The notes below the pieces were generated by a model. It worked only from the letters and a program-made list of their open reading frames with translations, did not search any database and was not told where the DNA came from. The translations under genes and the position numbers were made by a program. A stretch of DNA of 22,645 bases from a virus: positions 1-22,645 of IMG/VR virus record IMGVR_UViG_3300012936_000193. One strand, 5' to 3'. Below are positions 2 through 18,807 of the stretch, in pieces. Each line of letters opens with the position of its first letter. The stretch's first letter is position 1.

Positions 2-3000
2 AATAAGTGGGTTACTGATTCTTTTTTCGATGAAGAGGCACGCATAGAAAGTGCTGCCGAAGATAATGAGGGAACCCTTGGAAACAGCGAAGGGTATAAC
101 GTCTACCTTTCCAGGCAGTTTAGTTACAACACAAGTCACTACTATAATGATATTTTTGACCCGTCTTTGTTGACCTCCACAACCCAACCAGAAAATGGTT
201 TATATACAGAGGGGATTTTTTCAAAGTGCGGTCGTAAGGGCAATCTAGGAAGTCTCACACTTGTAAGTGAGGAACCTACCAAATATTATGTATTCCCTCA
301 AGACGTTTGCGCTGCTGCCACCGACTTTGGAAGAGAGAATCATGACAAATCTTTGGCAGCATTTTCAGTGGGAGGTTCTAGAGATGATAGAAAAAGAATA
401 CTTTCCAGTGTTGACATGGAAAATTTTTCTACAGAGTATGCACCGCAAAATTCACTTCACTTAGAAGGGTTAAAGTCTGGTGTATTGGACACCATAGAGG
501 CGATGGATAAATCATTTAATCTGTATCAGAGTGCCCCAGCACGCCCTGATCCAGGAATGGAGCGACATCTAGAAAATTTAAGAGAATCGGAAGATTACAA
601 GATAGGTTTAAGGCATTCAGATTTTGATTACTTTCAACCTGGGAGTTTGCAGTTAGAGGACACTGGGGTTTTTCAGTGGAAACTTGGAGAGGTGACTCAA
701 GATGAGTATAATAATTATAAATCTTTAGACTTTCCTGATTTAGAACCAGTGGAAAACGATGAGCACCTTTTGGGACCAAATGATGTGTATGAAGAGTGGA
801 CCCAATACATTATTGAAGATCCAGGATATGTTTTTTCAAATCCAGGAGAGTCTTTGCACAGTCCTTTTTCGATGGGCGCAATGATGGATGCTTCATATAA
901 CACAGGACAAGTTGAGGTCCGATCATTCAATTCGGACGACGAAGAGCTTCCAGCTCCAGAACCTACCAATATTCGTTACCACTGGCCAATTCAAGTTTAT
1001 CATAACGTTTTGGATCACATGAGGGTTTCAAGTCTAATCAAAGACAAAAGGTTAACAAAAGGGTATAATGGAATTAACTATGGGTGGGGATCAGAACCAT
1101 TCTTTAGGTCGAACAAGTCAGACCATCCTGATTTTCGCAATGAAAAGACTGATTATCGAAATCGGGGCAAGGGAAAGTATGATCAGATTTGGAGATTTAA
1201 CCAGAGTAAGTCTGGAGGTGATAATTCTAAAGCTGCAAGAGGAGAAAGAGGTGCAATAAGAAACATGATCAACAACGGTGTGTATCCCAAGCATTGTCCA
1301 ATAATGGTTAGACCTTTGGGGTATCAATCGGAGCAGTACGAACATGAAAATACAAATGAACTAGGGGCAAACGAATATGTATGTCCAGTATATGTGATGG
1401 TGACTCAGATTGACTATAAAATTGGAGATACAGTGCTTCATTCTGACACATATATTGGATCAAAATTTAATGATCCACTAGGAATAATGAAAGGCAGTGA
1501 TCTTAGGAATGATCATGGCACTACTGTAAAAAGAAGAGCTTTAAGTGAAGCAGTTACAAGGTTGACTATGGAATGGTCGGAGAATAACACTCGTGCAGTA
1601 AACTTAGTCGCTGGTGAAAATGTTTCTGACACTGAAGCATTTAAAGAAGTTGTTCGTGAACAATTAGATTATTTTGCCGCCGAAGCAGGACCAGGAGGCA
1701 GCTTTAATGGATCATTGTACCCAGGTCTTTTAGATGGTGTCATATTGGCTGTCCTAAGTAATGCTGGATTATTCGCTCGCGTTATGGAGGATACAGGTTT
1801 TGGTTCCTTCACCACCCTTCAGATCAAATTCGCTGAAAAGAAGGCGGACGAGGGCAAGTTTGATGACGCAATGAAAGAGTTTAGAAAAGTGGGTGCCGAA
1901 ATCGCCGCTGAGTTTGTTTACAGGATTGTGGATATACTAAACAACGGGGCAGGTGGTCTTTCAAGTGAAAATGTTCGTGAGATGATTATCAGACAGAGAA
2001 GTTTCTTTCGAAATCTTCTTGTAACTAATATCATAGAAGAACAAATTCTAGCAAACAGTGAATTTGGTGATTTTGGTATCAGACCATTATCAAGAGGTTA
2101 TGATCTAAATAGAACAAAGAGTACGAGAGCTAGACCGGAAGATATATCTTTTTCTTGGAGAACAAGAAATCATAAAACAAACATGCTAACAACATCCAAG
2201 GTTTATAGTGTAGCCGCCATGTTAACGGGAAATAACCGTGGTCAGGTCGGTATGGTGCAACCAATCGGAAAGGTTGGATCCTCATATGCCGCAGAGGGAA
2301 ATCCTACTTTGAATGTACCTTTGGTCAATATAGGTGATCTAGCGGATGAGTTGACTTTAAATTCAATCGCAGTTTCTAATGATCCTAACTCTTTTTGGTC
2401 TTCACTTGACTTGTTTAACCTTGAGCAAGATGCCGATCAAAAGATCTTATCTATCGTAAATGAATATACGGAGGGGTTTTTAAACACAAGGACTTATGAG
2501 GGATTTTGGGGATACACAAGTTCTCCAAAATATTTGGAAGGTTTTGCTTTCAATGAATTAACCAATAGATCGCAAAACCTTGGAACTGGAATTAGATATG
2601 AAAACGCCTATAGAGGAGATGACTATACTTGGACCGACTTTTTTGTTGATCACGACACTTTCCCTGCAATCTGCGACATAGAGGGTGGAAATGAGTCGGG
2701 ACTTACAGATGATGCAAATTGGAATGAAGAATACTCCGTCTTAAGATTGCCTTATCCTGGTGATTTTGAGGGCACTTTTGCAGGAAACACTTTGCCAAGA
2801 ACCTCTGCTGGGCATTACATGTTGGCAGACCTCCGACAGGGTCGCACTCGTGAAGGCGCTATAGAGTCCTATACAAGATCAAGAGGAGATTTTGAAAAAG
2901 CAACAACTAGAAGAGAGATAACCGAAGGCACTCAGATAAGTGGTTTTAGGGCATATCTTTTGAACAAAGCGATTTATCTTTTTTACAAAGCAGATGCTGA

Positions 3001-4282
3001 AGAAAGGAGGTTCTGGAATATCGCAGGCGGTCAGTTGGCAACACCCATGGATGAGCAAGATACTTTGGTGAACTATGGGGCAAGAACAAGGGACTCAGAA
3101 AATCCAGGACCACAACCCTCCGGTATTTTTGAAAGATTGAACGTAGCGTTGAAAGAAGAGATGACTACTAGACTTGAGAATATTATAGAAGGCAGCAATT
3201 ATGCTACAGGGTTGAGGATGGTTCACATTTTATCTGATTCTGCTTCAGACGAGATTGATCAAATTATGAATTCCTACAATGAGGGTCATCCATTAAGGTT
3301 GATGTTTGATCTTCTGTTTTTTGAAGAACGTCTCATTAGGATTAAGATTCCTGGACAAAGGAGAGAATTCAACTATGTAATTCCTTTGATATCTGTAGAG
3401 GAGGATATGGACAGGTGCAATCTTAATTGGAGAAACATTAGCACAACAGCGCAAACGATGGTGCCTGGACTTATGGACAGGTTGTCCAAAAACGAAGATT
3501 TTTTGACAATAGTGGAAGAGAGTTTTCCTTTGCAAAGATTCGCCTTGCTTTCAGGTTTGTATTCAGTCATGACATTATCGACAAAAGAGACGTTTGAAGA
3601 CTTTATGAACCCTTCAAAGTATTCTGTAGTGAATATCTTTGGAGCGATTATGAGTAAAGACGATTTTGAAAGAACTCCTTCTGGGGTAGAGATGTGGATG
3701 ATGGCAAATGGTTACATGACATCTAGGGGACCAAAACCCCCTCTCATGGAAGGTTCAATTGGGTCTTTCTTTAATCAGTTGTTCTTAAATGCCCTGAAGA
3801 CTCCCGTAATTATGATAAGAAATCTTTCCGGCATGTTAGATCCTGCATACAAATCAATGTTGAAAGAGCAAGACCCAGCAGACCAAAAGATAAACGTGTT
3901 GGGGTGGAGTTCTATTTCTGCAAATGGTGTCAAGTCTCCAATGAAGAACGGTGTGAATTGTGACGGGGATTATGTGCCCATAAACCTTGGATTCCCAAGG
4001 GATATAGCGACTAATCTATTACCCGTTCCAAATGAAAAGTTCTTTAAGGCACTCAAGAAGTTTGGTTTGTACATGTATAGAAAGAGAAGAGGGGGAGTTA
4101 ATGATAGTTATGGAGATTTCTTGGGACCATTCGGCGCATTGGCACTTTCATTACCAGAACTGCCTGGAGAAAAGGCATCAGTCGTCGCTGCTAGAAAGAT
4201 AGAGGAAGAAGGACGAACCCAGGAAGCGTGTGCCCCACCACAGATTATTGAAAGTTCTGAAAATAATACCGAAGAAGAATAA
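2..4282 (+). CDS. Large virion-associated protein of unknown function (5' end outside window)
   Basis: The reading frame is open from position 2 to the TAA at 4280-4282, giving 1426 visible residues; the true start lies upstream. A TTG at 167 could be taken as a start, but the frame continues unbroken before it (NKWVTDSFFDEEARIES...), so 167 is internal. I recognise no domain. The protein is rich in Asp, Glu, Asn, Arg and aromatic residues, has few Cys, and shows no membrane segment or signal peptide. A stretch encoded around 1630-2080 looks helical (LLDGVILAVLSNAGLFARVM, then a charged helix), while the first third looks loop-rich. The C-terminus is an acidic tail (SSENNTEEE). It ends 25 bases before the gp25-like gene, so a role in the tail or baseplate is likely from context only. 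It could be a wedge component, a tail-fibre connector or another large structural protein. Confidence refers to the gene being real. Confidence 0.9.
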   Translation, partial: NKWVTDSFFDEEARIESAAEDNEGTLGNSEGYNVYLSRQFSYNTSHYYNDIFDPSLLTSTTQPENGLYTEGIFSKCGRKGNLGSLTLVSEEPTKYYVFPQDVCAAATDFGRENHDKSLAAFSVGGSRDDRKRILSSVDMENFSTEYAPQNSLHLEGLKSGVLDTIEAMDKSFNLYQSAPARPDPGMERHLENLRESEDYKIGLRHSDFDYFQPGSLQLEDTGVFQWKLGEVTQDEYNNYKSLDFPDLEPVENDEHLLGPNDVYEEWTQYIIEDPGYVFSNPGESLHSPFSMGAMMDASYNTGQVEVRSFNSDDEELPAPEPTNIRYHWPIQVYHNVLDHMRVSSLIKDKRLTKGYNGINYGWGSEPFFRSNKSDHPDFRNEKTDYRNRGKGKYDQIWRFNQSKSGGDNSKAARGERGAIRNMINNGVYPKHCPIMVRPLGYQSEQYEHENTNELGANEYVCPVYVMVTQIDYKIGDTVLHSDTYIGSKFNDPLGIMKGSDLRNDHGTTVKRRALSEAVTRLTMEWSENNTRAVNLVAGENVSDTEAFKEVVREQLDYFAAEAGPGGSFNGSLYPGLLDGVILAVLSNAGLFARVMEDTGFGSFTTLQIKFAEKKADEGKFDDAMKEFRKVGAEIAAEFVYRIVDILNNGAGGLSSENVREMIIRQRSFFRNLLVTNIIEEQILANSEFGDFGIRPLSRGYDLNRTKSTRARPEDISFSWRTRNHKTNMLTTSKVYSVAAMLTGNNRGQVGMVQPIGKVGSSYAAEGNPTLNVPLVNIGDLADELTLNSIAVSNDPNSFWSSLDLFNLEQDADQKILSIVNEYTEGFLNTRTYEGFWGYTSSPKYLEGFAFNELTNRSQNLGTGIRYENAYRGDDYTWTDFFVDHDTFPAICDIEGGNESGLTDDANWNEEYSVLRLPYPGDFEGTFAGNTLPRTSAGHYMLADLRQGRTREGAIESYTRSRGDFEKATTRREITEGTQISGFRAYLLNKAIYLFYKADAEERRFWNIAGGQLATPMDEQDTLVNYGARTRDSENPGPQPSGIFERLNVALKEEMTTRLENIIEGSNYATGLRMVHILSDSASDEIDQIMNSYNEGHPLRLMFDLLFFEERLIRIKIPGQRREFNYVIPLISVEEDMDRCNLNWRNISTTAQTMVPGLMDRLSKNEDFLTIVEESFPLQRFALLSGLYSVMTLSTKETFEDFMNPSKYSVVNIFGAIMSKDDFERTPSGVEMWMMANGYMTSRGPKPPLMEGSIGSFFNQLFLNALKTPVIMIRNLSGMLDPAYKSMLKEQDPADQKINVLGWSSISANGVKSPMKNGVNCDGDYVPINLGFPRDIATNLLPVPNEKFFKALKKFGLYMYRKRRGGVNDSYGDFLGPFGALALSLPELPGEKASVVAARKIEEEGRTQEACAPPQIIESSENNTEEE

Positions 4283-4307: not shown

Positions 4308-4709
4308 ATGTCCAGGGGATTAGCGGCAAAACTACCATTAAGAATTTCAGAAGACTTTGGTCCATACGATCTGCACAAAGATGTAAAGAGTTTGGTGCAA
4401 CAAAACTTAAAAATGTTACTGCTAACTAATCCTGGCGAAAGGATGATGGATCCCGATTTTGGAATTGGACTACAGACTTATCTGCATGAGCAAAACACAG
4501 ATTCACTACAAGGCGAAATACGAGCAAGAATAAATGATCAAGTCGAAAGATACCTAGATTTTATAGAAATAAAAGAAAGTTATATTGGACCAGATAGAAA
4601 TTCTCTCAATCCTTCTGACAATGTTCTTACAATACAAATTAAGTACAACATCATTCCTTTATCGGAAGATGATATTCTATCAATAACTCTCCAAGATTTT
4701 AGTTTTTAA
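4308..4709 (+). CDS. Baseplate wedge protein, gp25/gpW family
   Basis: This 133-residue protein is a clear member of the GPW/gp25 family; T4 gp25 is 132 residues, so it looks full length. Residues 37-60 carry the family signature: a hydrophobic LLLT run, NPGER at 41-45, then DPDFGIGL at 48-55. The helix after residue 69 (IRARINDQVERYLDF) and the beta-strand end (VLTIQIKYNII) also fit. In T4 and P2-like particles this protein sits in the inner baseplate wedge with gp6/gpJ, and its fold helps start sheath polymerisation. Older 'lysozyme' labels for the family are misleading. It starts with a strong ribosome site and is followed by the gp6-like gene after 33 bases, the standard W-J order. The orthologue-level symbol is uncertain, so I leave it blank. 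Confidence 0.95.
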   Translation: MSRGLAAKLPLRISEDFGPYDLHKDVKSLVQQNLKMLLLTNPGERMMDPDFGIGLQTYLHEQNTDSLQGEIRARINDQVERYLDFIEIKESYIGPDRNSLNPSDNVLTIQIKYNIIPLSEDDILSITLQDFSF

Positions 4710-4731
4710 TCCTAATTATTTGGAAAAGTTC

Positions 4732-4735
4732 GAGG
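4732..4735 (+). promoter_or_regulatory. Ribosome binding site of the gp6-like gene
   Basis: GAGG lies seven bases upstream of the ATG at 4743, within the 33-base gap 4710-4742. It is short but well placed and supports the start. Confidence 0.6.
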
Positions 4736-4742
4736 TTTTTTA

Positions 4743-6539
4743 ATGACAATCAAGAAAATAGTTCCAATTGACTACACGAGTCGCGACTTTAATTCCATAA
4801 AGAACGACCTAATCGAATACACGAAAAGGTATTACCCAGAGGTTTACAGAGATTTTAATGAGGCAAGTTTTGGTTCCTTGATGTTGGATACTGTTTCTTA
4901 TGTCGGAGATATTTTGTCCTTTTACCTAGACTATCAGGCAAATGAGTCTTTTTTAGAAACATCAATTGAGTATTCAAATGTTCTTAATCATGCAAAGCAG
5001 ATGGGTTATAAGTTTTCAAATGCACCATCTTCATTTGGAACAGTTCAGATAGATTGCTTGATCCCTGCATCAACCCTGACAGTTTCTCCAGACTATGATT
5101 ATATTCCTACCTTGCAAAGGGGGACTGTTTTTTCGACTAATTCTGGAAAACTTTTTACATTAAACGAAAACGTTAGTTTTGACCCAACTGGCAACAACGA
5201 GGTCTACGTTCACTCTGAGACGGACCAGGGTCCTTCATATTATATTGTTAGATCAAAGGGTCAGGTTGTCTCTGGAGAGAGGTCGGTTGAGGAGATTGAA
5301 GTTGGCGATTTCCAAAGATTTCTAAGATTAGAGTTGTCAGGTGAAAATATAGCAGAAATCATTTCAGTTACCGACACTCAGGGAAATGTGTACCATGAAG
5401 TTAGTTACCTCTCGCAAAACGTAGTTTTTAAAGAGTTGCCAAACAAAGGCGTAAACTCCAAAGAATCACCTTCCTTGATCAAACCGTTTCCAGTTCCAAG
5501 AAGGTTTATAACTGAATACGAAGACAACAAGATCTACTTACAATTTGGTTATGGTTCAGAGAGCGAATTGACAAGCAACTCTATCATAGACCCAAGTGAA
5601 GTAATTCTCAAGGTTCATGGCAAGGATTATGTGACAGATACATCTTTTGATCCTAGTAAACTTACAAGTACAGACAAGTTTGGTGTTGCCCCAAGTAACA
5701 CGACATTGACTGTAGTGTATCGGACAAACAATGTCGAGTCTGTAAATGCAGCGGCAAACGAAATAACAAACGTTACAAGACCAATAGTTTCTTTTAGGAA
5801 TCCAGATTCTTTAGACGCCTCCAAGACACAAACAGTTACTAAAAGTTTTGAAGTCAGTAACTTGCAACCAATTGTTGGAGATATTTCCATTCCAACAACA
5901 GCGGAATTGAAAAGAAGGGCAATAGATGTTTTTGCAACACAAAACCGAGCGGTAACATTAAGAGACTATGTTAGTTCAGTTTATAATATGCCAGCAAAGT
6001 TTGGTGCAATAAAGAGATGTACGGTGCATAGGGATGACGATGAACTTAAAAGAAGTTTGAATATTTTTGTAATGTCAGAAGATCAGTCAGGAAATCTTGT
6101 AAAGGCAAACGAAACGATTAAAAATAATTTAAAGACTTGGTTAAATTCTATTAGAATGATTGGGGACTCCATCAAAATATTGGACGGACACATCGTCAAT
6201 GTCGGTATTGAGTTTGATATCATGATTGAAAACGACGCAAACGAAGTGGATGTACTTGCAAGGGCAACCAGAGAGATAATAAGGGACATGCTCCAAATAA
6301 AAATGGAGTTTGGTCAACCGTTTTACATTACCGATGTATTTAGATCTCTTAAGGACGTTGAAGGGTTGTTGGATGTAGTGGACGTCAGGTTGGTAAACAA
6401 GACGTCTACAGGATATTCTTCAGTATATTATGACATTAGGAATAACACATCAGTGGATGGTCGATACATCGGCATTCCTTTTGACCATGTGTTTGAGGTA
6501 AAAAATCCAAGAGTTGATATTGTAGGGAAAGTAGTGTAA
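4743..6539 (+). CDS. Baseplate wedge protein, gp6/gpJ (Baseplate_J) family
   Basis: The 598-residue product has the features of the T4 gp6 / P2 gpJ family; T4 gp6 is 660 residues. The N-terminus (PIDYTSRDFNSIKNDLIEY, then an FNEASFGSLMLDTVSYVGD stretch and LDYQANESFLETS) is the typical T4-like gp6 opening. Residues 399-409, TQNRAVTLRDY, match the characteristic Baseplate_J core, followed by a strand-rich region (IKRCTVHRDD, LNIFVMSED). The C-terminal part (VNVGIEFDIMIEND, then FYITDVFRSLKDVEGLLDVVDV) matches the family's C-terminal domain. In T4, gp6 dimers join neighbouring wedges into the inner baseplate ring and contact gp25, gp53 and gp7. The stop overlaps the next start (TAATG at 6537-6541), suggesting coupled translation. 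No truncation or frameshift is visible. Confidence 0.94.
   Translation: MTIKKIVPIDYTSRDFNSIKNDLIEYTKRYYPEVYRDFNEASFGSLMLDTVSYVGDILSFYLDYQANESFLETSIEYSNVLNHAKQMGYKFSNAPSSFGTVQIDCLIPASTLTVSPDYDYIPTLQRGTVFSTNSGKLFTLNENVSFDPTGNNEVYVHSETDQGPSYYIVRSKGQVVSGERSVEEIEVGDFQRFLRLELSGENIAEIISVTDTQGNVYHEVSYLSQNVVFKELPNKGVNSKESPSLIKPFPVPRRFITEYEDNKIYLQFGYGSESELTSNSIIDPSEVILKVHGKDYVTDTSFDPSKLTSTDKFGVAPSNTTLTVVYRTNNVESVNAAANEITNVTRPIVSFRNPDSLDASKTQTVTKSFEVSNLQPIVGDISIPTTAELKRRAIDVFATQNRAVTLRDYVSSVYNMPAKFGAIKRCTVHRDDDELKRSLNIFVMSEDQSGNLVKANETIKNNLKTWLNSIRMIGDSIKILDGHIVNVGIEFDIMIENDANEVDVLARATREIIRDMLQIKMEFGQPFYITDVFRSLKDVEGLLDVVDVRLVNKTSTGYSSVYYDIRNNTSVDGRYIGIPFDHVFEVKNPRVDIVGKVV
6524..6528 (+). promoter_or_regulatory. 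Ribosome binding site inside the end of the gp6-like gene
   Basis: AGGGA lies ten bases before the ATG at 6539, inside the 3' end of the gp6-like gene. With the TAATG overlap it supports the chosen start of the next gene. Confidence 0.45.
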
Positions 6540-9097
6540 TGGCAATTAAAAGATTTGTATCAAACAAGGACAATGTTATAACAAATGCTTATAAGTTTGA
6601 TCTAGATACTAGGGCAACAGACTCTAATATGGGGCAATCAGACATAGTAGAAGTTTTTAATATTTTTGGGCAACAGTCTAGAAATTCAATTGAAAAGTCA
6701 AGGACTATAATTCAGTTCCCGGTTGATGAGGTGGTATCGCAAAGAAGTGCAGGTAATATACCAAGTTCTGGTAGCGTACGGTTTATTCTTAGAATGTTCA
6801 ACGCAGAACACGGTCAGTCTGTACCTAGAAACTTTTACCTTGATGTCTGTCCATTGGCACAGTCCTGGGATGAAGGTTACGGTCTAGACATGGAGTCATT
6901 TGTGGATACCGGAGCGTCAAACTGGTTATCTGCCTCAGACGCATCTACTACGCAAATCACAAAGTTTACTTTTCTAAGTGCTTCTGCATATGATTATCGT
7001 GGTGGATCGGTGAGTCTTTATGAACAAGACGGCGACAGACACAATTTTTACTTCCAACACCATGCAACTGCTTCAGCGCCAGTTTTAGACGGTACCGAGC
7101 ACGAGGTGGATGTCAAAGGAAAAGTGACTCCTTCAGAGGTTGCAACTGCCTTTAGAAATTTTGTAAATCCAGTAAGTGGATTTAGCGCAGTCTCTCAAGA
7201 CGGAAATGCTGCTGTAGTTTTGGTGACAAGTACAACCGCTGGTTCGGTATCTACCTTTTCAATTAATAGTTTGCCTTCGAACACGATCACGGGTCAAATC
7301 ACTCAGACGGGCACTGATGCAGTGCTTTGGACATCTGAGGGTGGTTCTACATGGAAGAGTAATATTAAAGATACAGAATTCTCATCATACTCTCAGCAGT
7401 TTGTTTCCGGTAGAGAGCATTTGGAGATTGATATTACAGGTTTGGTCGAAGAGTGGGTGAAGGGGGAAGTCGGTGCAGGTTTGACAAAATCAAGCGGTTC
7501 AGTAAACTTCACAGGAACTCCAGTAGACAACTCCACTATAACTCTGATCAGTACTGATGGTCTTGCAAAAGAGTATAGATTTTTGTCTTCTGGCATAACG
7601 AACGCAGAGACTGGTTCTTCCGATTCATCAATTATTTTTGTTGACACTAGTTCTGGCAATACGTCAACAATTGCCACTAATTTCAAATCGGCAGTGACAA
7701 GCATCAATGCACACAGTAATCGATTTACGGTTGCAACAGACGCCACCCTTGTCTCTCTGACTCAATCTGTTGCTGGTTTCGGCGGCAATACAAAAGTTGC
7801 AACAACTGGGGTACCAAATGCAACAGTTTTCACTTACCTTTCGGGTGGGCATGGAGCGCACAATTACGGTCTTATGGTTAGTCTTCAGGGGACTTATGAG
7901 GACGGCAGTCTAGCAACTTCTTTCTATACTAAAAAGTTTTTTGCAAGAGGTAGTGAGTTTGAACTAAAGAGACCAATTTTAGAAGCTCGATGGAACAGTT
8001 CTGTAACTGATGATAGAAATGATTTCTACTTGAGTAGTTCTATGCTGAGTGCGGCAGACAATCTAAACTCCATCTATCTTTATAATTATTTCAGAGGGTC
8101 TCTAAATAACTTGCCAAACGTTGGAACTGGAAGTCTTTATGTTAAGTTCCTAAATAGTTCAGGCGCTGAGATTACTACATCGACACCGAGAAACCCAATC
8201 ACTGCTTCATATTCGTCCACTGGTGTTTATCGGGCACAAGTTGCCCTAACTACAAACGAGACACCTGTGACTGACGTTTGGTTTTTTGAAAAAGAAGCAA
8301 CAGCAACAATTACTACAACTGGAAATCCTGGAAATAATCAAACATTTTCCTTAAAAAACACTGCTGGTACAACAGTTACTTTTGTTTTTAAGACTGATTC
8401 TACAACGGTTGACGGCACGCTAGACGGAAGTAATGTCATCATTGGAGTCAACGGTGCCCTTGGCAGCGCCGCCGCAGTCGGAGACAGGATTCGATCAGCA
8501 ATAAACAACGCTTCCGGTCTCAATATTACCGCTACTGAGACTGCCGGTGGTGCCATGACTCTCACACAAGATGTGAAGGGGTCAGCGGGAAATACAACTA
8601 TTAACACGGATGCGGTTGACACTGTTAGTTCTACATCGTTTGATGGCGGTATCGGACCAACCGAATTTAACCGGGGAACTATCGTTCCAAAAACTCATAC
8701 CTCTAAGGGCAACAGACCAGATTTCAATTATGTATCAAAGTTGTTAAATCTAAAATCATCTTACAATTCGCAAGAAAAACCAAGACTCAGACTCTATATC
8801 AGAGAAAGAGATTGGCGTCCAAACATTTATACGATTGCAAGCAGAGACATTGAAAGCACTGTAATTAAAAATGCTTATTACAAATTGGAAAGAATTTCAG
8901 ATAATTTTCCTGTTATAAATTATGGAACGGGCAGCGTAGAGTACACAAAGTTGTCTTATGACGTTAGTGGGAGTTACTTTGACTTAGACATGTCAATGCT
9001 TGAGGAAGGGTATGCTTACGAAATTTCCATAGTCTATAAGTTAGATAATGATTATAAAGAGCAAAATGACAAGTTTAGGTTCAGAGTAGACAAATGA
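6539..9097 (+). CDS. Beta-rich tail/baseplate structural protein with three inserted modules
   Basis: The 852-residue product appears to be a conserved scaffold interrupted three times. Residues 1-138 contain SRTIIQFPVDE, a strand-rich RFILRMFNAE segment and an AQSWDEGYG motif. Together with W264..EGGSTW and the IDITGLVEEWVKG strand (297-309), these resemble DNRLRE/CBM96-type beta-sandwich domains, though this rests on motif impression only. Residues 440-580 (YTKKFFARGSEF, RPILEARW, DNLNSIYLYNYFRG) recall a family of large marine phage structural proteins, from memory. The C-terminal 145 residues (RLYIRERDWRPNIYT...) are also scaffold. Modules lie at about residues 139-259, 316-437 and 589-706. 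The position after gp6 suggests a baseplate-peripheral role, possibly glycan binding; this is inference. It starts in the TAATG overlap with the gp6-like gene and ends in an ATGA overlap with the giant gene. Confidence 0.9.
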   Translation: MAIKRFVSNKDNVITNAYKFDLDTRATDSNMGQSDIVEVFNIFGQQSRNSIEKSRTIIQFPVDEVVSQRSAGNIPSSGSVRFILRMFNAEHGQSVPRNFYLDVCPLAQSWDEGYGLDMESFVDTGASNWLSASDASTTQITKFTFLSASAYDYRGGSVSLYEQDGDRHNFYFQHHATASAPVLDGTEHEVDVKGKVTPSEVATAFRNFVNPVSGFSAVSQDGNAAVVLVTSTTAGSVSTFSINSLPSNTITGQITQTGTDAVLWTSEGGSTWKSNIKDTEFSSYSQQFVSGREHLEIDITGLVEEWVKGEVGAGLTKSSGSVNFTGTPVDNSTITLISTDGLAKEYRFLSSGITNAETGSSDSSIIFVDTSSGNTSTIATNFKSAVTSINAHSNRFTVATDATLVSLTQSVAGFGGNTKVATTGVPNATVFTYLSGGHGAHNYGLMVSLQGTYEDGSLATSFYTKKFFARGSEFELKRPILEARWNSSVTDDRNDFYLSSSMLSAADNLNSIYLYNYFRGSLNNLPNVGTGSLYVKFLNSSGAEITTSTPRNPITASYSSTGVYRAQVALTTNETPVTDVWFFEKEATATITTTGNPGNNQTFSLKNTAGTTVTFVFKTDSTTVDGTLDGSNVIIGVNGALGSAAAVGDRIRSAINNASGLNITATETAGGAMTLTQDVKGSAGNTTINTDAVDTVSSTSFDGGIGPTEFNRGTIVPKTHTSKGNRPDFNYVSKLLNLKSSYNSQEKPRLRLYIRERDWRPNIYTIASRDIESTVIKNAYYKLERISDNFPVINYGTGSVEYTKLSYDVSGSYFDLDMSMLEEGYAYEISIVYKLDNDYKEQNDKFRFRVDK
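6953..7315 (+). repeat. Divergent inserted beta module A (protein-level repeat)
   Basis: Residues about 139-259 of the 852-residue protein. The order of elements is like the other modules: a strand, a DG turn, an aromatic strand (NFYFQHH), a helix (VATAFRNFV), then strands with VVLVTSTTAGS. It interrupts a DNRLRE-like domain between SNWLSASD and W264..EGGSTW. Sequence similarity to modules C and D is weak, so membership is a pattern-based inference and the edges are approximate. Confidence 0.45.
7484..7849 (+). repeat. Inserted beta module B (protein-level repeat)
   Basis: Residues about 316-437 of the 852-residue protein. The core ITLISTDGLAKEYRF, a helix with ATNFKSAVTSIN, VSLTQSVAGFGGNTKV and the terminal LSGG correspond in order to the strand, DG turn, aromatic strand, helix, LTQ..G..GNT and TSF.GG elements of modules C and D. 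It lies in the loop between the VEEWVKGEVG strand and NYGLMVSLQ. Edges are approximate. Confidence 0.6.
8303..8656 (+). repeat. Inserted beta module C, paralogous to module D
   Basis: Residues 589-706 of the 852-residue protein, running from ATITTTGNPGNN to TSFDGGIG. By hand alignment about 71 of 117 positions match module D in the next gene (11428-11778), with one gap. Shared blocks are TITTTGNPGNN, FKT...TVDGT, VIIGVNGA, VGDR.R.AI, ETAGGAM.LTQ, GNTTI and TSF.GG.G. The DNA has drifted, largely at third codon positions, so this is a protein module repeat and not a recent DNA duplication. Confidence 0.85.
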
Positions 9098-12000
9098 GTT
9101 TAAAAAAGTTTTTTGAAGACAAAAGCAAAAAAATAATTAAGTTAGTAGATTACAAGGCAACAGAGAATCTTCTAAAAGAGAATGTTTACACTCACGATTT
9201 TATCGTGTCTAAAGAGTTGACATTAAGAAGGTTCGTGCCCAAGATCGACTATTCTGATCCAAAGAATTTTGCTTTTTTTGGAAATGCGGAACGCTATTAC
9301 GAAGATTCCATAAAAAGAGTTTATGGGACCTATCCTTATGATGATTCACCGCATGAAAAAGAACAATGGTTTCTCAGTTCATCCTTTTTGGACTTGCACG
9401 TTTTTAGGAATGATTACCCTAAATCTACTGGATATGGTATCTTCTCTTCAGCGGGATGGGGCACAAGAACATCAGTAAGTGGTGCTTACGGAGAACCAGA
9501 GAACAAAGAATACATTTATGTCAAGGGTGGACCACATAAGAATAATGTTTTCAATCCAGCGGACAACAAAGAATCAAATCTTAAGTTAGACGGATCGAAA
9601 GGCAATACTGTTGAGTTCTTTTTAAAGAAATCAGAGTTCGTTAACTCCTTGACCGGAAGAGAGGTGATTTTCGATTGCTCCACCAATGATTCAGACATCT
9701 CAGAGTTTGGTGGTTCATATGGCAGGTTCAGGGTGGAACTGGACGGTAACGCTGCGGGTTCCCCATTTCTAGTAACATACTCATCAGGATCAAAGGGTGT
9801 GACACATGCTGTAGTTGGTAATTCAATTACGAAATCAACTGTTGCTGACAATGCTTGGCACCACTACGCAGTTTCTGTTGCAAACAAGGGGTCAAATCTA
9901 GAGATATCTCTTTATATTGATGGAGTGATCAATCAGACAATCTTAACCGGATCTACTTGCGCTGCAAACGAAGTAAACCTTCAAGCTAATATTGGTTCTT
10001 TGGTTAAGAAGATTACCAACACATCTACGACAGCGATAGGTTGGGGTAAACTTTCTGGATCTCTGGATGAATTTAGATTTTGGAAGGTCAAGAGGGATGC
10101 AGAGCAGATTGGTTCAAATTGGAGACATCAGGTTGCTGGAGGAAGTAACTTCGAAGGAATTACGGGTGATCTAGGAGTTTATTATAAGTTTAATGAAGGC
10201 ATCACTACTGACGCTGATACAGACAAGGTAGTTTTAGATTACTCAGGTCGTGTTTCAAACGGTAATTGGATTGGATATGCATCTACTGCTAGAAACACCG
10301 GATCCGCAATCACAGAATCGGGAGCAAACACTACAGAGTTTCAAGACCCAATTATTAGGTCCAACCATCCATCAGTTGTCTCTCTTTTGACAGAAAAGAG
10401 GGCAATTGGCAAAAGTCATGACATGACAAACTCTTCTGGTCTTTATTCTACTTTTCCAAATTGGATGTTGAGCGAAGACACTGAGGCATACAAGGGTTCT
10501 GGAAGACTTGCAGAATTAGTTCAGATCATTGCTTCATATTTCGATACTCTGTACATTCAGACAAAGGTTTTGCCCGGTCTTAAGAGTAGGGGGTATGATG
10601 ATTACTCGTCATCTCAGCATTTAAGTGGATCTAAACCTGCCCCTTTTGCTGATAAGTTGTTGAGATCTTCAGGTTTTGTTGCTCCTGAGTTGTTTGTTGA
10701 GTCCAATGTCATGGACAGGATTCTTGGACAAGATGCAAATAGGTCCTTCGAGCAAGACTTGACAGACATAAAGAATCTTATTTACAAGAACATTTACAAC
10801 AATCTTGTACACATCTACAAATCTAAGGGCACTGAGTCATCTTTTAGAAACTTAATTCGTTGTTTTGGAATAGACGACGAACTGATAAAGTTGAACCTAT
10901 ATGCTTCAGATTATACTTATGAGTTTTCAGATACCTATCTGTATAAATCAGAGAAGGTTAAGGGAATAAACTTTAACGACCCAAATCTCTTCAGTGCAAC
11001 GATCTTTCAACAAACATCAAGTTATGGATCGACTCACTATATGTCGGGTAACACCGATCTACACACACCGTATACTATTCAGGCAGATGTAATAATGCCT
11101 TTAAAGTTAAAGAGTGGTCAAAAGGGATTCTTTGTAACAGGATTTTTAACATCTTCAATCATGGGTCTGCACACTCCTGCCCTAGCAGCAGGCGATACGA
11201 CTTTTGATACAAGTGACCCCGCAGGAATACAGGTTTATGCAGTGCATCACCCAACCAGAGAAGGAGCGGCAAAGTTTGTACTTACTTCTTCAAAGGGGAA
11301 TGTTCCCCATCTTGAGACGCCCTTTTACGAAGATGTTTACGATGATAAGCATTGGAGCATTTCTGCCAGAATAAAACCAAATGTTCATCCTTTTGCGGGC
11401 ACTGTGGTTGCTTTTGCAAGTGCTGTTGGGACGATTACAACAACAGGCAATCCTGGAAACAATGAGGAGTTCACTTTGACGGACGCCGATGGACTATCTG
11501 TTACATATATTTTTAAAACAGGTGTCGCGACAGTAGATGGAACCAAAGATAGTGGAAAAGTCATCATAGGCGTCAATGGTGCTACAGGTCACGCCCCATC
11601 TGTTGGAGACCGAATGCGCGCAGCAATAACCGCTTCGGACTTGAATGTGACCGTAGTGGAGACCGCTGGTGGAGCAATGAGTCTAACTCAGAACTCAAAG
11701 GGGACAACAGGAAATACAACAATAGATATGAGCGGAGTCACAACTGTCGTCGCGACTAGTTTTACTGGTGGCGTCGGCGAGTATACGGTTGAGTTTTCAG
11801 GATACAATTATATTGTAGATGAGTTACAAGAGAGTTTTTCTTTGTCTGGTTCTGCAACAGTGTCTGCACTTGGAGATTTCTCTGCCGCTAGAAAATCTAT
11901 GTATGTCGGCGCAAACCGTGGCAACTTCAATGAAACGGTTCAGCAATCTTCAGACGTTATTATAAACTCTGCTAGAGTTTGGCAGGGATACTTAACAGAG

Positions 12001-15000
12001 GCAGAACTCAAGAGTCATGCCCTGAGTTTTAATGAATATGGAAGGTTAAACCCTTCAAGAAATGCGTATCTTTTTGAACCTGGATCAGATTCAACTGAGA
12101 TAAACCAGGCAGCAACGATGATGTTGCATTGGAACTTTGACCAGGTTACTGGATCTGACGCTAACGGTGAATTCTTTGTGGCAGACACCAGTAGGCAATT
12201 TGCTGGATCTTTTGGTGGGTCAAATACTGCTTTAAATGCGTATCACGGGGGCACTGGTTTTGGTTTCCCTGCGTCATCTACAACAATGGTTAGGGGCATG
12301 TCTCTGGCGGTAGCGAAAGAGAATTTGCCTGAAAATATTCACAACTCTAGTTTGGTTACTGTAGAGACTCGTGACAAAGAAAGATTGACAAGAGATTCAC
12401 GTCCAATAAACTATTATTTTGCATTTGAAAAGAGCATGTATCAGACGATCTCTGAAGAGATGGTCAAGATGTTTGCCACTATTGTGGAGTTTAATAACCT
12501 TATTGGTGAACCAGTTAACAAATATAGACCAACTTATAAAAAGATGGATCATTTGCGATCAATGTTTTTCGCAAACGTGGAAGAAGATCCAGATTTAGAT
12601 AAATACATAGAGTTTTACAAGTGGTTTGATGTTTCAATGGCAATAATGTTGGAAGAGGTTAGACCAGCATCAATGCCTGGTTCAGACGGCATCAAGAACA
12701 TGGTTGAGTCCCACATCTTAGAGAGGAATAAGGTTCAGCATCGTGCGCCCACTATCGAGTTCAAGCAAGACACACCGGAAGCAAAGATACTAGGTGTCAA
12801 CGAGTTGTCTTATGATTGGGAGCACGGTCACGCCCCGATACCTGGATTCTGGGCAGGTTTCGATGGCACCGACGACTTCATTCAAGTTTCAGACCATGAC
12901 GACTTTAGTTTTGGTGACGCATCGAACGATGGGGTCTTCACTTTATCTGCATGGGTTGTGTTTAGCGATCCTGCGTCAAATGTACAGTCGATTATAAGCA
13001 AGTACAATGCAAACACGGCATCTGAGTACCTTTTCTTCAATAATAATGGATATCTTCAGATGAACTTGTATGACCTAAACACAGCAAACATAATCAGATC
13101 TAAGACAAACGCTGTAGTTTTTGAAAGTGGAAAACTTTATCATGTTGCTGTGGTCTACGACGCTGGTGGCGCAGCGTCTGGAATTGAGTTGTATGTGAAT
13201 GGTGTTGCCCCCGCTCAAACAAAGTCGTCCCTTGGGTCATACACAGCGATGCACAATACATCAGTTGCCCTCCAGTTTGGATCAACCGTTGCAGGAACAT
13301 TTGACTTTGCAAGAAACATGCATCATGTAATGGTTATCGAAGATGACTTAACTCCAGCGAAAGTTTTGGAACTATACAATCTTTATGAAGATGGTATACT
13401 TCCCGCAGAAAAGTTCAGTGGTTATAGTCAGATAACTTCTTGGTGGAAGATGGACCAAGAATCTTATATGTTTGGTTCAGCGAGAGACTCAAAGGGCGCT
13501 CACCACGGTTCTTTCCATGGTAATGCAAACATAGTTCATGAATATGCCATATTTAAAAAGCAAAACGATAATTGTCTTTGGTGGAAAGACCGAGAGATCA
13601 GGGGTGATCTTTTAGAGACATCTACTCTAGTCGATGCAAACAGAGAGTCCATAAGAAGGGTAAACAACACTGTTGTGTCTGGTTCGACTTACGCCACTAG
13701 AAGACTGACAAGACCTTATAGATTCAGCATGGAGAGGAGTCAAGGACTGAGTCCAGGTTCTAACATTGCAACGAATAAGACCAACAACCTTTATCAGGGT
13801 GTTATTAAGTTTGACGATGATGCGGCATCAATTGAGTTGACTGCATCAAACTTGCAAGAGCAGAAAATTTGTAATGATGTTATTGTGCCAAACCAAAAGA
13901 TTAGACTTCATGGCAAAACAGATGCACTAGGTACTGATGGATATTTGGACGTAGATTCAGATATGATTGCCCCATTTAGTTTGTACTCATCTTCTGTGGG
14001 CGACAATGCGCTTTCCGCTTTCAAGTCGGGTGTCGCTTTGACAAATAACCATGGAGACTCTTATCACATAGACGGGCATATTCCATTGCAAGGTTTGTTT
14101 ACTGCCCAACATGTTGGTGGAAAGACACATCGAAACGTTGAGGTTACGGTGTCTTCTCCTGAACTTCGACCCGAAGCATACGCCCTTGAGGTCACTGCTG
14201 GTAAGATAAAGATTGTTCATCAACCGACGAACAGACCTCGGTCTATGTTTTATAGAAATGAGATGATCAGACGCCCAGTAAATATTCGCAATATTCGGAC
14301 AACAACGGGGTCTTACAAGATCGGAAATTACCAAGAGGTATACGAGTATGCGTTGACCAACGGAAGGCGCGAGAACAACAATGACTTCGCTCAAAACAGT
14401 GGTTACACTGGGTCCTTGTACAGTTCTGTCGCTGCCATTGCAACAGGGTTACTGGACCAACCAAAACCAAATAGAAATAAGAACACTCATGTCATCGTTA
14501 ATAGATTTTCTGCACCAGGTGGCACTGAGACCATGGGTGATGCAAACGGTGGTCCAAACTTGGATTTTGCTGCTGGCGAGTACTCGGTGTATAATACGAT
14601 GAATCATAGAAATTCATTGGTCAGAGAAGTCAAGAACGAATTGGATGCAGAGTTCTCAGAAAGATTTGGACTAAGAAGTGGTTCTACAGTTGTAGAGAAT
14701 TCGTATGAAGTGGTATCTGGTTCGAAGAATGGGTTTGCGTCAATACATATGACGAACAGAAACACCTTAACAATAAGCACCGCATCAGTAGATGGGTATG
14801 ATCCAAAGGTACAGAGAGATAATGCCTTTGTGCAGCATCCGATTCCGAGAAGTGAGGTACAGTATAGTTGGATCGCCGCGAAGACAACTGATACAAGAGA
14901 GACGTTCCCTGGGTATAAGCATGATTTCACTATACCCGTTGGAACTGACACAGCAAGACAAAGAGAGATTGCAATCTTACAATCTTCAGCAGGAACATAC

Positions 15001-18000
15001 TCTGATTTTGTTGGACTTCATTACACTTCGTCCGCTCCAACTATAATAAACTCATCTATCAATACTGGTAGTAATACGTTTTCTTATGATTTTGGAACTC
15101 TTGCTGACCGGCATCATTTGAGATCCTTTATCGCTAAAAGATCTCCATATGCCTGGAATTCATGGAAGCAACTTCGTGGTGGCGACCATCCGATAGCAAA
15201 GTATTATAGAAGTCAAAATATCATCTCTATCCACTTGAGGGACGGAGAACCTAATTCATCTCCTTTTATGGATTATGAGAGACCGCATGGTATAAACGAA
15301 AACAGAACAGCAACAAAAAGCAGGGTGATACAGAATTATCAAGAACCCTCTGTCACTTCACAATATAAACCAATGGAACTCATGTTTGGGGTTATTAGTG
15401 ATGCAAATTATGGTCAACTCCGAGAAGATACTCTTGGAGAAGGTGGAAAGGTTGGAACAGCGCAAAGAAGAAGAAGCAGGGTCTTTGGTGCTGAAAGGTC
15501 TGAAGTAAAGATGAAAATCTCTTATGCAAATAATCTTTGCAAATTTGCAAATAGAGACTTGATGAACGTTCTTAAGTTGGAAGACACTGGACCAACAGAT
15601 TTTGGGAATCTTTTGGAAAGCATGAGGTCAAACCTTATTGCAACCCCAAGAGGATTCAAATATTCAGAAACAATATATCCAGCAGAAGTTAATGCGTATC
15701 AAAAGGAAACCAGACTTAGAACTGCTTTTGTTAGTCACGAATGGAGAGACACTAGACTTGCAAGGTTTGAAATGTTGACAAGAAGTGTCACAGAGAGGTC
15801 TTACAATTACGATTCTTGGTATACAAACACTATAGAAGCAAACACAAAAACAAACTCTCAGAATGTTGCAATTCTAGATTCAAATAATGCCGGTTCTTTG
15901 AATTACCATCTGAGTCAAAGCATGTGGGCACTTGATGCTCGTAGTGATTTCGCTGCCATTCCTGAAAAGTTGTTATCAAGCAACCTGACTTGGTCTAGTG
16001 ATGCACAGAGAGACGCTTATAAGCTTCAATTTGTTACAAACCTTAAGGATTCTGGGGAGTTGCAAAATGGATACAGTATTTTCCATCAGTATGGTGCAAC
16101 TCAAGGAAGGTACGACCTTTTGACCGCTGCATTGTATAATCGCAGAATTCCTCAAACGGTAGGGTCCAGCACTTATTTGGCAGGCGAAGCAAAATGGGAG
16201 GCAGGAGACCAAGCAGGCAAGTACCCTTTTGAGAAAGACTACAACACATGGGCAGAAGAGTTAAGGACTGTTTCAGATTTCTCTCTTATTCCAGAGTTTA
16301 GAATTTCGGAACATATTCCAAATTACTTAGAAAATGGAAACACTAGAGATCCAATTGAGACTTTTCTGGAATTAACCGGATCATCTCTGGACAGCAGTAA
16401 AGGTACTTTTTTCAAAACATATTCTAATACTGATTTTATGAAGTACTTTACAGTAGTTAAAGACTCCTTGAGCAGTGGAAGTTTGGACAAAGAACCTTCT
16501 TCATTGTTTTTGAAGTGTTCCGCAATGCTTAAGATGCTTCCCTACAAAGGTTTCTACCCAGCAACAAGAACTTTGAAAATAGCTGAACTCTTCCAAGAAG
16601 GTTACACAGACACCAATTTTGATATATCATCCATTCTAAATGCTACAAGCGACGACGAGAAAAAGAATTATAATAGATATGCTAATACAAATGTCAGAAC
16701 AAATATGCATCTTGCAACAAAGGCGTTATATGCCCCTGGGGTTTTATACAATTCAATAAAATCTGGTGTTGCTGTTGATTATCCAATTTTTAAAAATGAA
16801 GGAATAGGTAAGTGGAGCTTACAAGAGTTCAGCACAATCTTTGGAGTCTCCTTTCCAACAGGTCCCGTGACTTCAGATAACGCCTCTGGGTCATTAAAGA
16901 ACTTGTACGCAGGATACGGAACTTCTATAACAGGAAGTTATTTGAATGGAACGCAAGATCAGTCGATACCAAGAATCAAGGGTTCGGTCTCAAAGAGGGT
17001 TAGTTTTGAGGAAATGATAGATCCATCAGTACTGGAGGGAGTGATTTTGTACGATAATGAACCACACCCCTCTGCTTCATACGGAAGTTTTGCATTTGGG
17101 AATCCTGACAGAACCTTTTCACTAAACGCATTCCCTCGTTATGGACTTATGTTTGCTCAATCTGAATCGGACGCAACTGGTTCTGCTTGGCAAGTAGATA
17201 TCCCTACTGCACGAGCAGGTGATACAACAGAGTATTCTTTGGCAATGAGTAATTTTGCCGCTGAAGTTCCAAACTTTTTCTTAAAAGATAACTCGCTTAC
17301 AACTATTTTATCTGAACCTGGACCGTTTTCTTTCAACAAGTCAGAAATTGGTAAAACCTTTAAGATGAGACTCACGTTTAAGAACAACTCTACATTGATG
17401 TATGACAATGTTTCTGCTTTTGGACCCCCTGTTGACAATAGTACTGGTGCAGGCGCAGGCGGCAATTATGATTTTGATCCATATGTACCGGCATTTTTAA
17501 GAAAAAATGCGGACCCATTCGTGGAGTTTGTTTTTACTCCGACAAAGAGAGAATATGCTATAGATGAAATACAGGGTGAGGTTACGGCAAGTTTTGGTTT
17601 GGGAAATACGACAAGATCTGTAAGATATAGTACAAATTTACAAGCTCAAATGACATTATCCAGTTCTTTGAATCTTTTCGGAACGCTCAAGGAACCTGCG
17701 GTCACTCTAGACAGAGATGGCAATCCATTACAAGTAGAGGAGCGCGCTACAGACCGATTTAGATGGATGATCCAGACCAAGTGGGAATGTCCTGTTTTAG
17801 ACTTTTCAGATTCTGACATTACCTTGTTCGACGTTACGGGCAGCAAAGAAGTGAAATTATCAGAGGAGTATTCAAGTGCTCCCGGTACTTTGGGGTCTCC
17901 ATGGACCACGACCACTGCGTTCGTCCCCTCTGCCATGCCACCAGGCAAAAAAAGTTCTTTTATGACCGGTTCAAGAGGTATGTGGCATCAGTATGGACAA

Positions 18001-18807
18001 CTACCCGCTAAGGAAAAGGGTTATCAAATTGTGCTGTCAGACGTAAACGACCTTAGTGAGTCTCTTGCATCAAAGATTGGATTCCCAGTTGGAACACCAT
18101 TTCAGGTTGGTCAGGTTGCTGACGGAAGGGAGATTGGGGAGGCAATCGTAGCGGTGCCTTACTATGTAGAGTCGGGAGATTTAAACTTTTTTGATCTAGA
18201 TGTAGAAGACATGAGAGAAGTTCTTGGAGAGTTTGATGCTCTGCGCGGAGAGATCGCACTTACTCCTGGAGTAAATCCAGCAGTTAGGCACCAGATAGAA
18301 ATGATGCAGAAGTACATTTTCCCACCTCAGATGGATTTTGTAAAATATCGTGACAAAAGTCCAATTGCTATGTATGTTTTTGAGTTTACTCATGATTTGA
18401 GCAAGCAAGATCTTGTAGACTTGTGGCAAAATCTACCTCCTAAAATTGGACAACATGCAGAGGGCACACAACAAAAGGTTGTCGGTCATCGTTTGGTCAA
18501 GAATGGACAAGTCAAGGATCCACTCAACGGAAGCATGGCAAACAAACTTCAATGGATGGTGTTCAAGGTTAAGCGCAAGGCAGAAAAGAATTACTTTAAG
18601 AAACTTGATGATTCTGCTTTCCAAAAGTCAGGAAAATCAGGCAATGTTTTGCGAGAAGGGAAGAGTCTTGCTCTGATCGATACTTTGGATCAAAAATTTA
18701 GTAAAACTGACGGATATTCATACAACTGGCCATATGATTACTTTTCACTAGTAGAACTAATTAAATTGGATGCAGAAGTGGTCTTCAGAGATGATGAGGG
18801 CAACTAG
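9094..18807 (+). CDS. Giant tail/baseplate protein with gpI-like segment and three LamG folds
   Basis: The 3237-residue product starts at an ATGA overlap with the preceding stop and runs without interruption to the TAG at 18805-18807. LamG/concanavalin-like folds are at about residues 170-390 (TVEFFLKK, WHHYAVSV, LYIDGV, LDEFRFW), 660-1040 (WSISARIKP, SARVWQGYLTE, MLHWNFD; interrupted by module D at 779-895) and 1250-1475 (FDGTDDFIQVSD, FTLSAWVVF, YHVAVVYD, ELYVNGV). Residues about 465-600, between the first two, hold a helical segment ending in YKSKGTESSFRNLIRCFG (575-592), which resembles the KGT...G signature of P2 gpI / T4 gp7 wedge proteins. From about residue 1480 on I see no named domain; VNRFSAPGG and QHPIPRSEVQYSWI recall giant proteins of marine phages, from memory. 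A fused wedge and receptor-contacting protein is my inference; a tail-fibre or neck role is possible. The ribosome site is weak, so translation probably depends on coupling. Confidence 0.92.
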   Translation: MSLKKFFEDKSKKIIKLVDYKATENLLKENVYTHDFIVSKELTLRRFVPKIDYSDPKNFAFFGNAERYYEDSIKRVYGTYPYDDSPHEKEQWFLSSSFLDLHVFRNDYPKSTGYGIFSSAGWGTRTSVSGAYGEPENKEYIYVKGGPHKNNVFNPADNKESNLKLDGSKGNTVEFFLKKSEFVNSLTGREVIFDCSTNDSDISEFGGSYGRFRVELDGNAAGSPFLVTYSSGSKGVTHAVVGNSITKSTVADNAWHHYAVSVANKGSNLEISLYIDGVINQTILTGSTCAANEVNLQANIGSLVKKITNTSTTAIGWGKLSGSLDEFRFWKVKRDAEQIGSNWRHQVAGGSNFEGITGDLGVYYKFNEGITTDADTDKVVLDYSGRVSNGNWIGYASTARNTGSAITESGANTTEFQDPIIRSNHPSVVSLLTEKRAIGKSHDMTNSSGLYSTFPNWMLSEDTEAYKGSGRLAELVQIIASYFDTLYIQTKVLPGLKSRGYDDYSSSQHLSGSKPAPFADKLLRSSGFVAPELFVESNVMDRILGQDANRSFEQDLTDIKNLIYKNIYNNLVHIYKSKGTESSFRNLIRCFGIDDELIKLNLYASDYTYEFSDTYLYKSEKVKGINFNDPNLFSATIFQQTSSYGSTHYMSGNTDLHTPYTIQADVIMPLKLKSGQKGFFVTGFLTSSIMGLHTPALAAGDTTFDTSDPAGIQVYAVHHPTREGAAKFVLTSSKGNVPHLETPFYEDVYDDKHWSISARIKPNVHPFAGTVVAFASAVGTITTTGNPGNNEEFTLTDADGLSVTYIFKTGVATVDGTKDSGKVIIGVNGATGHAPSVGDRMRAAITASDLNVTVVETAGGAMSLTQNSKGTTGNTTIDMSGVTTVVATSFTGGVGEYTVEFSGYNYIVDELQESFSLSGSATVSALGDFSAARKSMYVGANRGNFNETVQQSSDVIINSARVWQGYLTEAELKSHALSFNEYGRLNPSRNAYLFEPGSDSTEINQAATMMLHWNFDQVTGSDANGEFFVADTSRQFAGSFGGSNTALNAYHGGTGFGFPASSTTMVRGMSLAVAKENLPENIHNSSLVTVETRDKERLTRDSRPINYYFAFEKSMYQTISEEMVKMFATIVEFNNLIGEPVNKYRPTYKKMDHLRSMFFANVEEDPDLDKYIEFYKWFDVSMAIMLEEVRPASMPGSDGIKNMVESHILERNKVQHRAPTIEFKQDTPEAKILGVNELSYDWEHGHAPIPGFWAGFDGTDDFIQVSDHDDFSFGDASNDGVFTLSAWVVFSDPASNVQSIISKYNANTASEYLFFNNNGYLQMNLYDLNTANIIRSKTNAVVFESGKLYHVAVVYDAGGAASGIELYVNGVAPAQTKSSLGSYTAMHNTSVALQFGSTVAGTFDFARNMHHVMVIEDDLTPAKVLELYNLYEDGILPAEKFSGYSQITSWWKMDQESYMFGSARDSKGAHHGSFHGNANIVHEYAIFKKQNDNCLWWKDREIRGDLLETSTLVDANRESIRRVNNTVVSGSTYATRRLTRPYRFSMERSQGLSPGSNIATNKTNNLYQGVIKFDDDAASIELTASNLQEQKICNDVIVPNQKIRLHGKTDALGTDGYLDVDSDMIAPFSLYSSSVGDNALSAFKSGVALTNNHGDSYHIDGHIPLQGLFTAQHVGGKTHRNVEVTVSSPELRPEAYALEVTAGKIKIVHQPTNRPRSMFYRNEMIRRPVNIRNIRTTTGSYKIGNYQEVYEYALTNGRRENNNDFAQNSGYTGSLYSSVAAIATGLLDQPKPNRNKNTHVIVNRFSAPGGTETMGDANGGPNLDFAAGEYSVYNTMNHRNSLVREVKNELDAEFSERFGLRSGSTVVENSYEVVSGSKNGFASIHMTNRNTLTISTASVDGYDPKVQRDNAFVQHPIPRSEVQYSWIAAKTTDTRETFPGYKHDFTIPVGTDTARQREIAILQSSAGTYSDFVGLHYTSSAPTIINSSINTGSNTFSYDFGTLADRHHLRSFIAKRSPYAWNSWKQLRGGDHPIAKYYRSQNIISIHLRDGEPNSSPFMDYERPHGINENRTATKSRVIQNYQEPSVTSQYKPMELMFGVISDANYGQLREDTLGEGGKVGTAQRRRSRVFGAERSEVKMKISYANNLCKFANRDLMNVLKLEDTGPTDFGNLLESMRSNLIATPRGFKYSETIYPAEVNAYQKETRLRTAFVSHEWRDTRLARFEMLTRSVTERSYNYDSWYTNTIEANTKTNSQNVAILDSNNAGSLNYHLSQSMWALDARSDFAAIPEKLLSSNLTWSSDAQRDAYKLQFVTNLKDSGELQNGYSIFHQYGATQGRYDLLTAALYNRRIPQTVGSSTYLAGEAKWEAGDQAGKYPFEKDYNTWAEELRTVSDFSLIPEFRISEHIPNYLENGNTRDPIETFLELTGSSLDSSKGTFFKTYSNTDFMKYFTVVKDSLSSGSLDKEPSSLFLKCSAMLKMLPYKGFYPATRTLKIAELFQEGYTDTNFDISSILNATSDDEKKNYNRYANTNVRTNMHLATKALYAPGVLYNSIKSGVAVDYPIFKNEGIGKWSLQEFSTIFGVSFPTGPVTSDNASGSLKNLYAGYGTSITGSYLNGTQDQSIPRIKGSVSKRVSFEEMIDPSVLEGVILYDNEPHPSASYGSFAFGNPDRTFSLNAFPRYGLMFAQSESDATGSAWQVDIPTARAGDTTEYSLAMSNFAAEVPNFFLKDNSLTTILSEPGPFSFNKSEIGKTFKMRLTFKNNSTLMYDNVSAFGPPVDNSTGAGAGGNYDFDPYVPAFLRKNADPFVEFVFTPTKREYAIDEIQGEVTASFGLGNTTRSVRYSTNLQAQMTLSSSLNLFGTLKEPAVTLDRDGNPLQVEERATDRFRWMIQTKWECPVLDFSDSDITLFDVTGSKEVKLSEEYSSAPGTLGSPWTTTTAFVPSAMPPGKKSSFMTGSRGMWHQYGQLPAKEKGYQIVLSDVNDLSESLASKIGFPVGTPFQVGQVADGREIGEAIVAVPYYVESGDLNFFDLDVEDMREVLGEFDALRGEIALTPGVNPAVRHQIEMMQKYIFPPQMDFVKYRDKSPIAMYVFEFTHDLSKQDLVDLWQNLPPKIGQHAEGTQQKVVGHRLVKNGQVKDPLNGSMANKLQWMVFKVKRKAEKNYFKKLDDSAFQKSGKSGNVLREGKSLALIDTLDQKFSKTDGYSYNWPYDYFSLVELIKLDAEVVFRDDEGN
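10486..10893 (+). other. gpI/gp7-like wedge segment within the giant protein
   Basis: Residues about 465-600 of the 3237-residue protein form a mainly helical stretch (LAELVQIIASYFDTLYIQT, then DLTDIKNLIYKNIYNNLVHI) ending with KGT at 578-580 and G592. The P2 gpI (Tail_P2_I) family has a comparable layout: helices, then R/K-x-KGT, then a short helix and glycine. This is motif-level evidence only. Confidence 0.5.
11428..11778 (+). repeat. Inserted beta module D, paralogous to module C
   Basis: Residues 779-895 of the 3237-residue protein, from GTITTTGNPGNN to TSFTGGVG, about 60% identical to module C of the previous gene by hand alignment. It lies between strands of the second LamG fold: AGTVVAFAS before it and EYTVEFSGYNYIVDE after it read as a continuous domain if the module is removed. 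Confidence 0.85.

Follow-up and report, generated by a model that had tools for sequence, protein, structure and literature searches.

A ~117-residue accessory domain recurs in tail and baseplate-locus protein loops of an uncultured virus and its relatives

Phage Ig-like domains are exchanged horizontally between structural proteins, and weak carbohydrate binding has been proposed for them, as cited in PMC9230969, which also names adhesion and stabilisation as candidate roles for the added domains of tail sheaths. PMC10684548 describes how phages continue to shuffle fragments of their proteins. The ~117-residue module examined here is a phenomenon of this known kind, that is, a promiscuous accessory virion domain. 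Like the Ig-like domains it is an optional addition with signs of horizontal exchange; in contrast to them, it is inserted into internal loops, and its predicted model (strands and a central helix) does not look like an Ig sandwich. In its predicted fold it resembles the add-on domains of tail sheaths (A-1(L), Sf14, PhiTE, Bas63, Milano; PHROG 165), and two of its own hosts are sheaths, but the add-on domain has been described as a part of the sheath, whereas the module shifts between host proteins that belong to several families. LamG or concanavalin A-like inserts (PF13385) are unrelated to it in sequence, with no fold relation indicated, yet they can occupy the same port. The consulted passages of PMC10684548 mention neither this domain nor its sites in their empty, filled and swapped states, nor that sheath and giant baseplate-locus proteins share it, and in the literature and databases searched no description of the family or of its port-like sites was apparent.

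The window, meaning the whole 22,645-nucleotide stretch analysed, is an uncultured virus record. The wedge genes that precede the 852-aa gene mark a T4-type contractile-tail locus, and the features relevant to the module are the following:

4308..6539, + strand: gp25-like and gp6/baseplate-J-like wedge genes (phrog_261, phrog_43, phrog_219)
6539..9097, + strand: host protein 1 (852 aa), whose gene follows immediately on that of the gp6-like wedge protein
6968..7321 (about), + strand: module A, the most divergent copy, at about residues 144-261 in the 852-aa protein
7496..7858, + strand: module B, at about residues 320-441 in the 852-aa protein (matched to D by BLASTP with E 8e-9; profile E 3e-28)
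8303..8656, + strand: module C, a domain of 118 aa inserted in the 852-aa protein (residues 589-706), 62% identical to D
9094..18807, + strand: host protein 2, a 3237-aa giant with LamG-like domains (Laminin_G_3, 9e-20)
11428..11778, + strand: module D, a domain of 117 aa inserted in the 3237-aa protein (residues 779-895)
12838..13560, + strand: swap site, with 'DWEHGHAP' and 'QNDNCLWWKDR' on either side of a LamG insert (PF13385 at residues 1257-1424)

The preliminary description of this DNA had placed the same ~117-residue module in two adjacent genes with unrelated surroundings, and this claim holds, as do the coordinates and termini given for C and D. BLASTP of the whole proteins aligns residues 587-706 of the 852-aa protein with residues 777-895 of the giant (74/120 identical, 62%, E 1.2e-37), and the only further match between the two proteins is the third module copy, B (32%, E 8e-9), which indicates that the flanks of C and D are unrelated. 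Compared alone, the two modules share 73 of 117 residues with one gap (E 8e-46); the earlier estimate of about 60% identity is thus borne out at 62%, and the rough hand count of 71 becomes 73. The copies had also been judged not recent from drift at third codon positions, and the fourfold-degenerate sites agree, being identical at 17 of 47 positions (36%) where base composition predicts about 31% by chance (p 0.27). Synonymous sites are therefore saturated, which means that the pair is old, that its protein sequence has been kept by selection, and that mobility has to be inferred from the relatives and not from the window pair. An iterated profile raised the number of copies in the window to four, namely A, B and C in the 852-aa protein and D in the 3237-aa protein. 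Module A was found in this way (E 1e-7 among the window ORFs), and A and B, both in the 852-aa protein, are the older copies.

The relatives offer unusually clear before and after states, in which the same loop is empty, filled or differently filled, so that the insertion of domains into virion proteins can be measured. Among twelve orthologues of the 852-aa protein, window included, the module is absent from four (L014, L016, L018, L028), present once in five (at B in L013, L019 and L022, at A in L017 and L025), twice in L012 (A and B) and three times in the window and L015 (A, B and C). By site, aligned copies stand at A in L012, L015, L017 and L025, and A is empty in L013, L014, L016, L018, L019, L022 and L028. 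Site B is filled in L012, L013, L015, L019 and L022 and empty in L014, L016, L018 and L028, and site C is empty in L012, L013, L014, L016-L019, L022, L025 and L028. Protein length tracks copy number accordingly, as a core of 501 aa and three modules of 117 add up to 852, and the module-free L014 orthologue measures ~500 aa.

In the giant family, C/D-type modules occupy ten positions across twelve genomes (window residues 291, 703, 734, 781, which is D, 1046, about 1250, 1514, 1615, 1708 and 1873). Site D, in a loop of an apparent LamG-type region, is filled in three of the twelve giants (window, L015, L028), and in the other nine it is empty with continuous host sequence. At the swap site, the port that carries LamG in the window holds the module in L015, the window's close relative, as well as in L017 and L022, and a linker of only about 13 residues in L014. 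The same site contains other inserts, missed by the profile, in L013 (ORF residues ~1175-1325) and L018 (~1333-1480), which by eye resemble very divergent cousins of the module at the sequence level. Further down, the L015 giant has a LamG-like insert at about residues 1798-2050, before 'RDNAFVQHP', where the window has a short linker only. Two more, very divergent module-like copies lie at residues 2784-2898 and 3084-3201 of the L022 giant ORF (E 3e-4 and 7e-19), which suggests that the module family extends beyond the C/D type.

The module is also found outside these two families. C/D-type copies are inside tail-sheath proteins of two other, unrelated contigs, of which the L024 host is assigned by phrog_23 (E 4e-57) and PF17482, and the L020 host by a weak match to phrog_20545 (E 0.003). 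In addition, a C/D-type copy resides in a 420-aa protein of L021 that has no family assignment, and a more distant copy in a protein of 800 aa encoded on another contig (L010/L029). The profile thus reaches beyond full-length orthologues, to giant loops, 852-family loops, tail sheaths and others, and the proposal that the domain spreads between loops of virion proteins is upheld by these many contexts and by the clean empty sites in orthologues. Being optional in orthologues and present in different host proteins, the module behaves as a promiscuous accessory virion domain.

Predicted in isolation from 34 aligned copies, the module gives a confident, compact AlphaFold2 model (mean pLDDT 84, pTM 0.80) with four strands, one 14-residue helix (56-69) and further strands. 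By this prediction it is an inserted, self-folding domain that is not integral to the host fold. Its top VIA-align match is residues 96-186 of the cyanophage A-1(L) sheath (8kee; Z 10.2, rmsd 2.1 Å, 88 residues aligned, 22% identity), followed by other sheaths (Sf14, PhiTE, Bas63 and Milano; Z 8.9, 8.1, 8.1 and 7.7), so that by VIA-align the fold is shared with a non-core domain of solved tail sheaths. T7-type nozzles reach Z about 7, and the outer D2/D3 domains of flagellin and FliD (Flagellin_IN type), which have a similar arrangement, Z 5.2-7.7, although values under 8 may reflect a common arrangement. Matches with Z of at least 5 comprise sheath, nozzle, baseplate and flagellar chains, and the absence of Ig chains among them does not amount to an exclusion. 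Foldseek against solved structures returned no PDB match below E 0.5 (best 0.59), while predicted viral proteins gave five matches with E < 0.001, with baseplate-J-like proteins next.

At the sequence level, four of the 34 copies match phrog_165 (tail sheath), the best being L017 site A over residues 96-179 (E 8e-8), near the region 96-186 that the structural match covers in the A-1(L) sheath. C/D-type copies searched singly have no significant match to solved sheaths (Milano sheath only at E 0.55), and C and D have none in Pfam, NCBIfam, PHROGs or PDB sequences. Likewise, tblastn against INPHARED yielded chance matches only, and a single-protein module scan of the genome contigs yielded no relatives. 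The earlier doubt that the family has a name was well placed, as it has none in Pfam, NCBIfam or PHROGs. A Flagellin_IN label for the module was considered and finds no support in Pfam, where none of the 34 members matches PF07196 at E up to 10 (filters drop weak matches). The C-terminal domain of the 852-aa protein itself is an Ig/MG-like beta-sandwich (VIA Z 9.9 over 98 residues), and the prediction of the whole protein is poor (pTM 0.40) and gives no basis for exposure claims in context.

Trees of 19 C/D-type copies are not sorted by site. Grouping the three site-D copies is rejected (AU p 4e-44), and so is grouping the three swap-site copies (AU p 0.001), which means that the same loops were hit repeatedly or that copies were overwritten by conversion. 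Copies from three genomes, at giant sites 291, 781 and 1615, group in a single clade, and same-genome copies cluster in L018 and L022, with 67-70% of fourfold sites shared among the three L018 copies. Copies of L019 and L028 at different sites share 62% of fourfold sites compared with 38% in their hosts (Fisher p 0.005, to be read with caution as one among many pairs compared), and the L017 giant copies share 59% of 113 fourfold sites with the L020 sheath copy. Synonymous similarity of modules above that of their hosts in some pairs suggests that the spread is partly younger than host divergence. Between the window and L015, the modules evolved along with their hosts, i.e. vertically. Replacement of module D in the window and L015 after their split was also considered and rejected, its flanks being equally saturated (34% vs 33-45%). 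No conserved DNA or motif was found at the module ends as a recombination signal.

Overall, the module is probably an accessory display domain, carried in loops of T4-type contractile tails, spread by in-frame insertion or recombination and serving adhesion or as a spacer. According to this model, the ~117-aa unit would fold independently within the surface loops that carry it in proteins of the tail and the baseplate locus, and copies would be inserted in frame both within one genome and between phages, putatively by recombination. After insertion, the protein sequence would come under strong selection while the DNA drifts freely. Insert-tolerant loops would act as recurrent ports, either empty or occupied by the module, by a LamG domain or by a divergent insert. 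The module would most likely serve as a displayed adhesion or spacer surface that provides weak host-envelope binding or tail-stabilising contacts. Exposure on the virion surface, which we infer, is supported indirectly by the sheath location, by the LamG replacement at one loop and by the sheath add-on fold. Carbohydrate binding, suggested as a possibility in the preliminary description, is plausible, and the exchange of module and LamG at one port hints at this putative activity. A bolder version, which we regard as improbable, holds that the module is a dedicated mobile domain, whose copying process would insert it precisely, repeatedly and in frame into the same sheath and baseplate-locus loops, so that ports would swap cargo (module, cousin or LamG) and thereby change the tail display.

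A purely structural role, in which the module acts as cement or spacer and, with no ligand, stabilises tail and baseplate through extra bulk and contacts between subunits, is rather unlikely, even though the same fold is an add-on domain in solved tail sheaths, stabilisation stands beside adhesion among the roles proposed for such domains (PMC9230969), and conservation of the module sequence is strong from one host to another. One domain would then need matching contacts in unrelated hosts and in ten different loops, a LamG domain replaces it at one port, and relatives manage without it. Free variation of presence among relatives, and the many different loops with no fixed position, would also fit a near-neutral or selfish hitch-hiker that folds well, does no harm and gathers in tolerant loops by illegitimate recombination. 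However, module protein identity is kept at ~65% despite near-saturated synonymous sites, and K30, D37, R62, E78, Q88 and N96 (alignment A5 numbering) are invariant charged or polar residues that mere filler need not keep, which makes this reading very unlikely.

The least credible account is old paralogy, whereby an ancestral protein with many copies underwent differential loss and gene conversion. The A and B copies are indeed ancient and recur at fixed 852-family sites, and the clustering of same-genome copies is also in its favour. Against it stand the sheath proteins of other contigs that carry the module, the single clade formed by sites 291, 781 and 1615, the module-free state of distant isolate relatives and the many precise losses that would be needed. 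The empty, filled and differently filled sites provide a natural collection of insert-tolerant places in contractile tails.

The isolate relatives place the locus in context. The gp6-like protein of the window has relatives with 32% identity in Microcystis phage Mel-JY01 and Flavobacterium phage immuto. In immuto, gp6 is followed by a gene for a 370-aa protein whose relation to the 852-aa protein is confined to the N-terminal part (hhalign probability 96%). A little further along, at a similar gene position, proteins of 1266 and 1337 aa from the two isolates match the giant with E 5e-20 and 1e-17. No clear module copy was found in the examined regions of either phage. Module insertion helps to explain why a giant of more than 3200 aa sits at a T4-type baseplate locus where the isolate relatives have about 1270-1340. 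The unnamed immuto genes in NC_055915.1 (L040, 15808-21046) are distant module-free relatives of the giant and the 852-aa protein, and those of Mel-JY01 in PP395634.1 (L041, 18265-22275) of the giant.

Long ORFs flank the baseplate genes of the window at 2-4282 (1426 aa) and 19753-22645 (964 aa), each open at the window end and with no PHROG match below E 0.01. The giant gene itself, compared between two close phages (window against L015/L032), is a mosaic over about 13900-18804. Fourfold sites show about 33-47% identity as far as residue ~1600, climbing to 97% by residues 2101-2370, and the DNA is 95-97% identical over 14812-18804, which suggests that the downstream half of the gene recently underwent homologous replacement.
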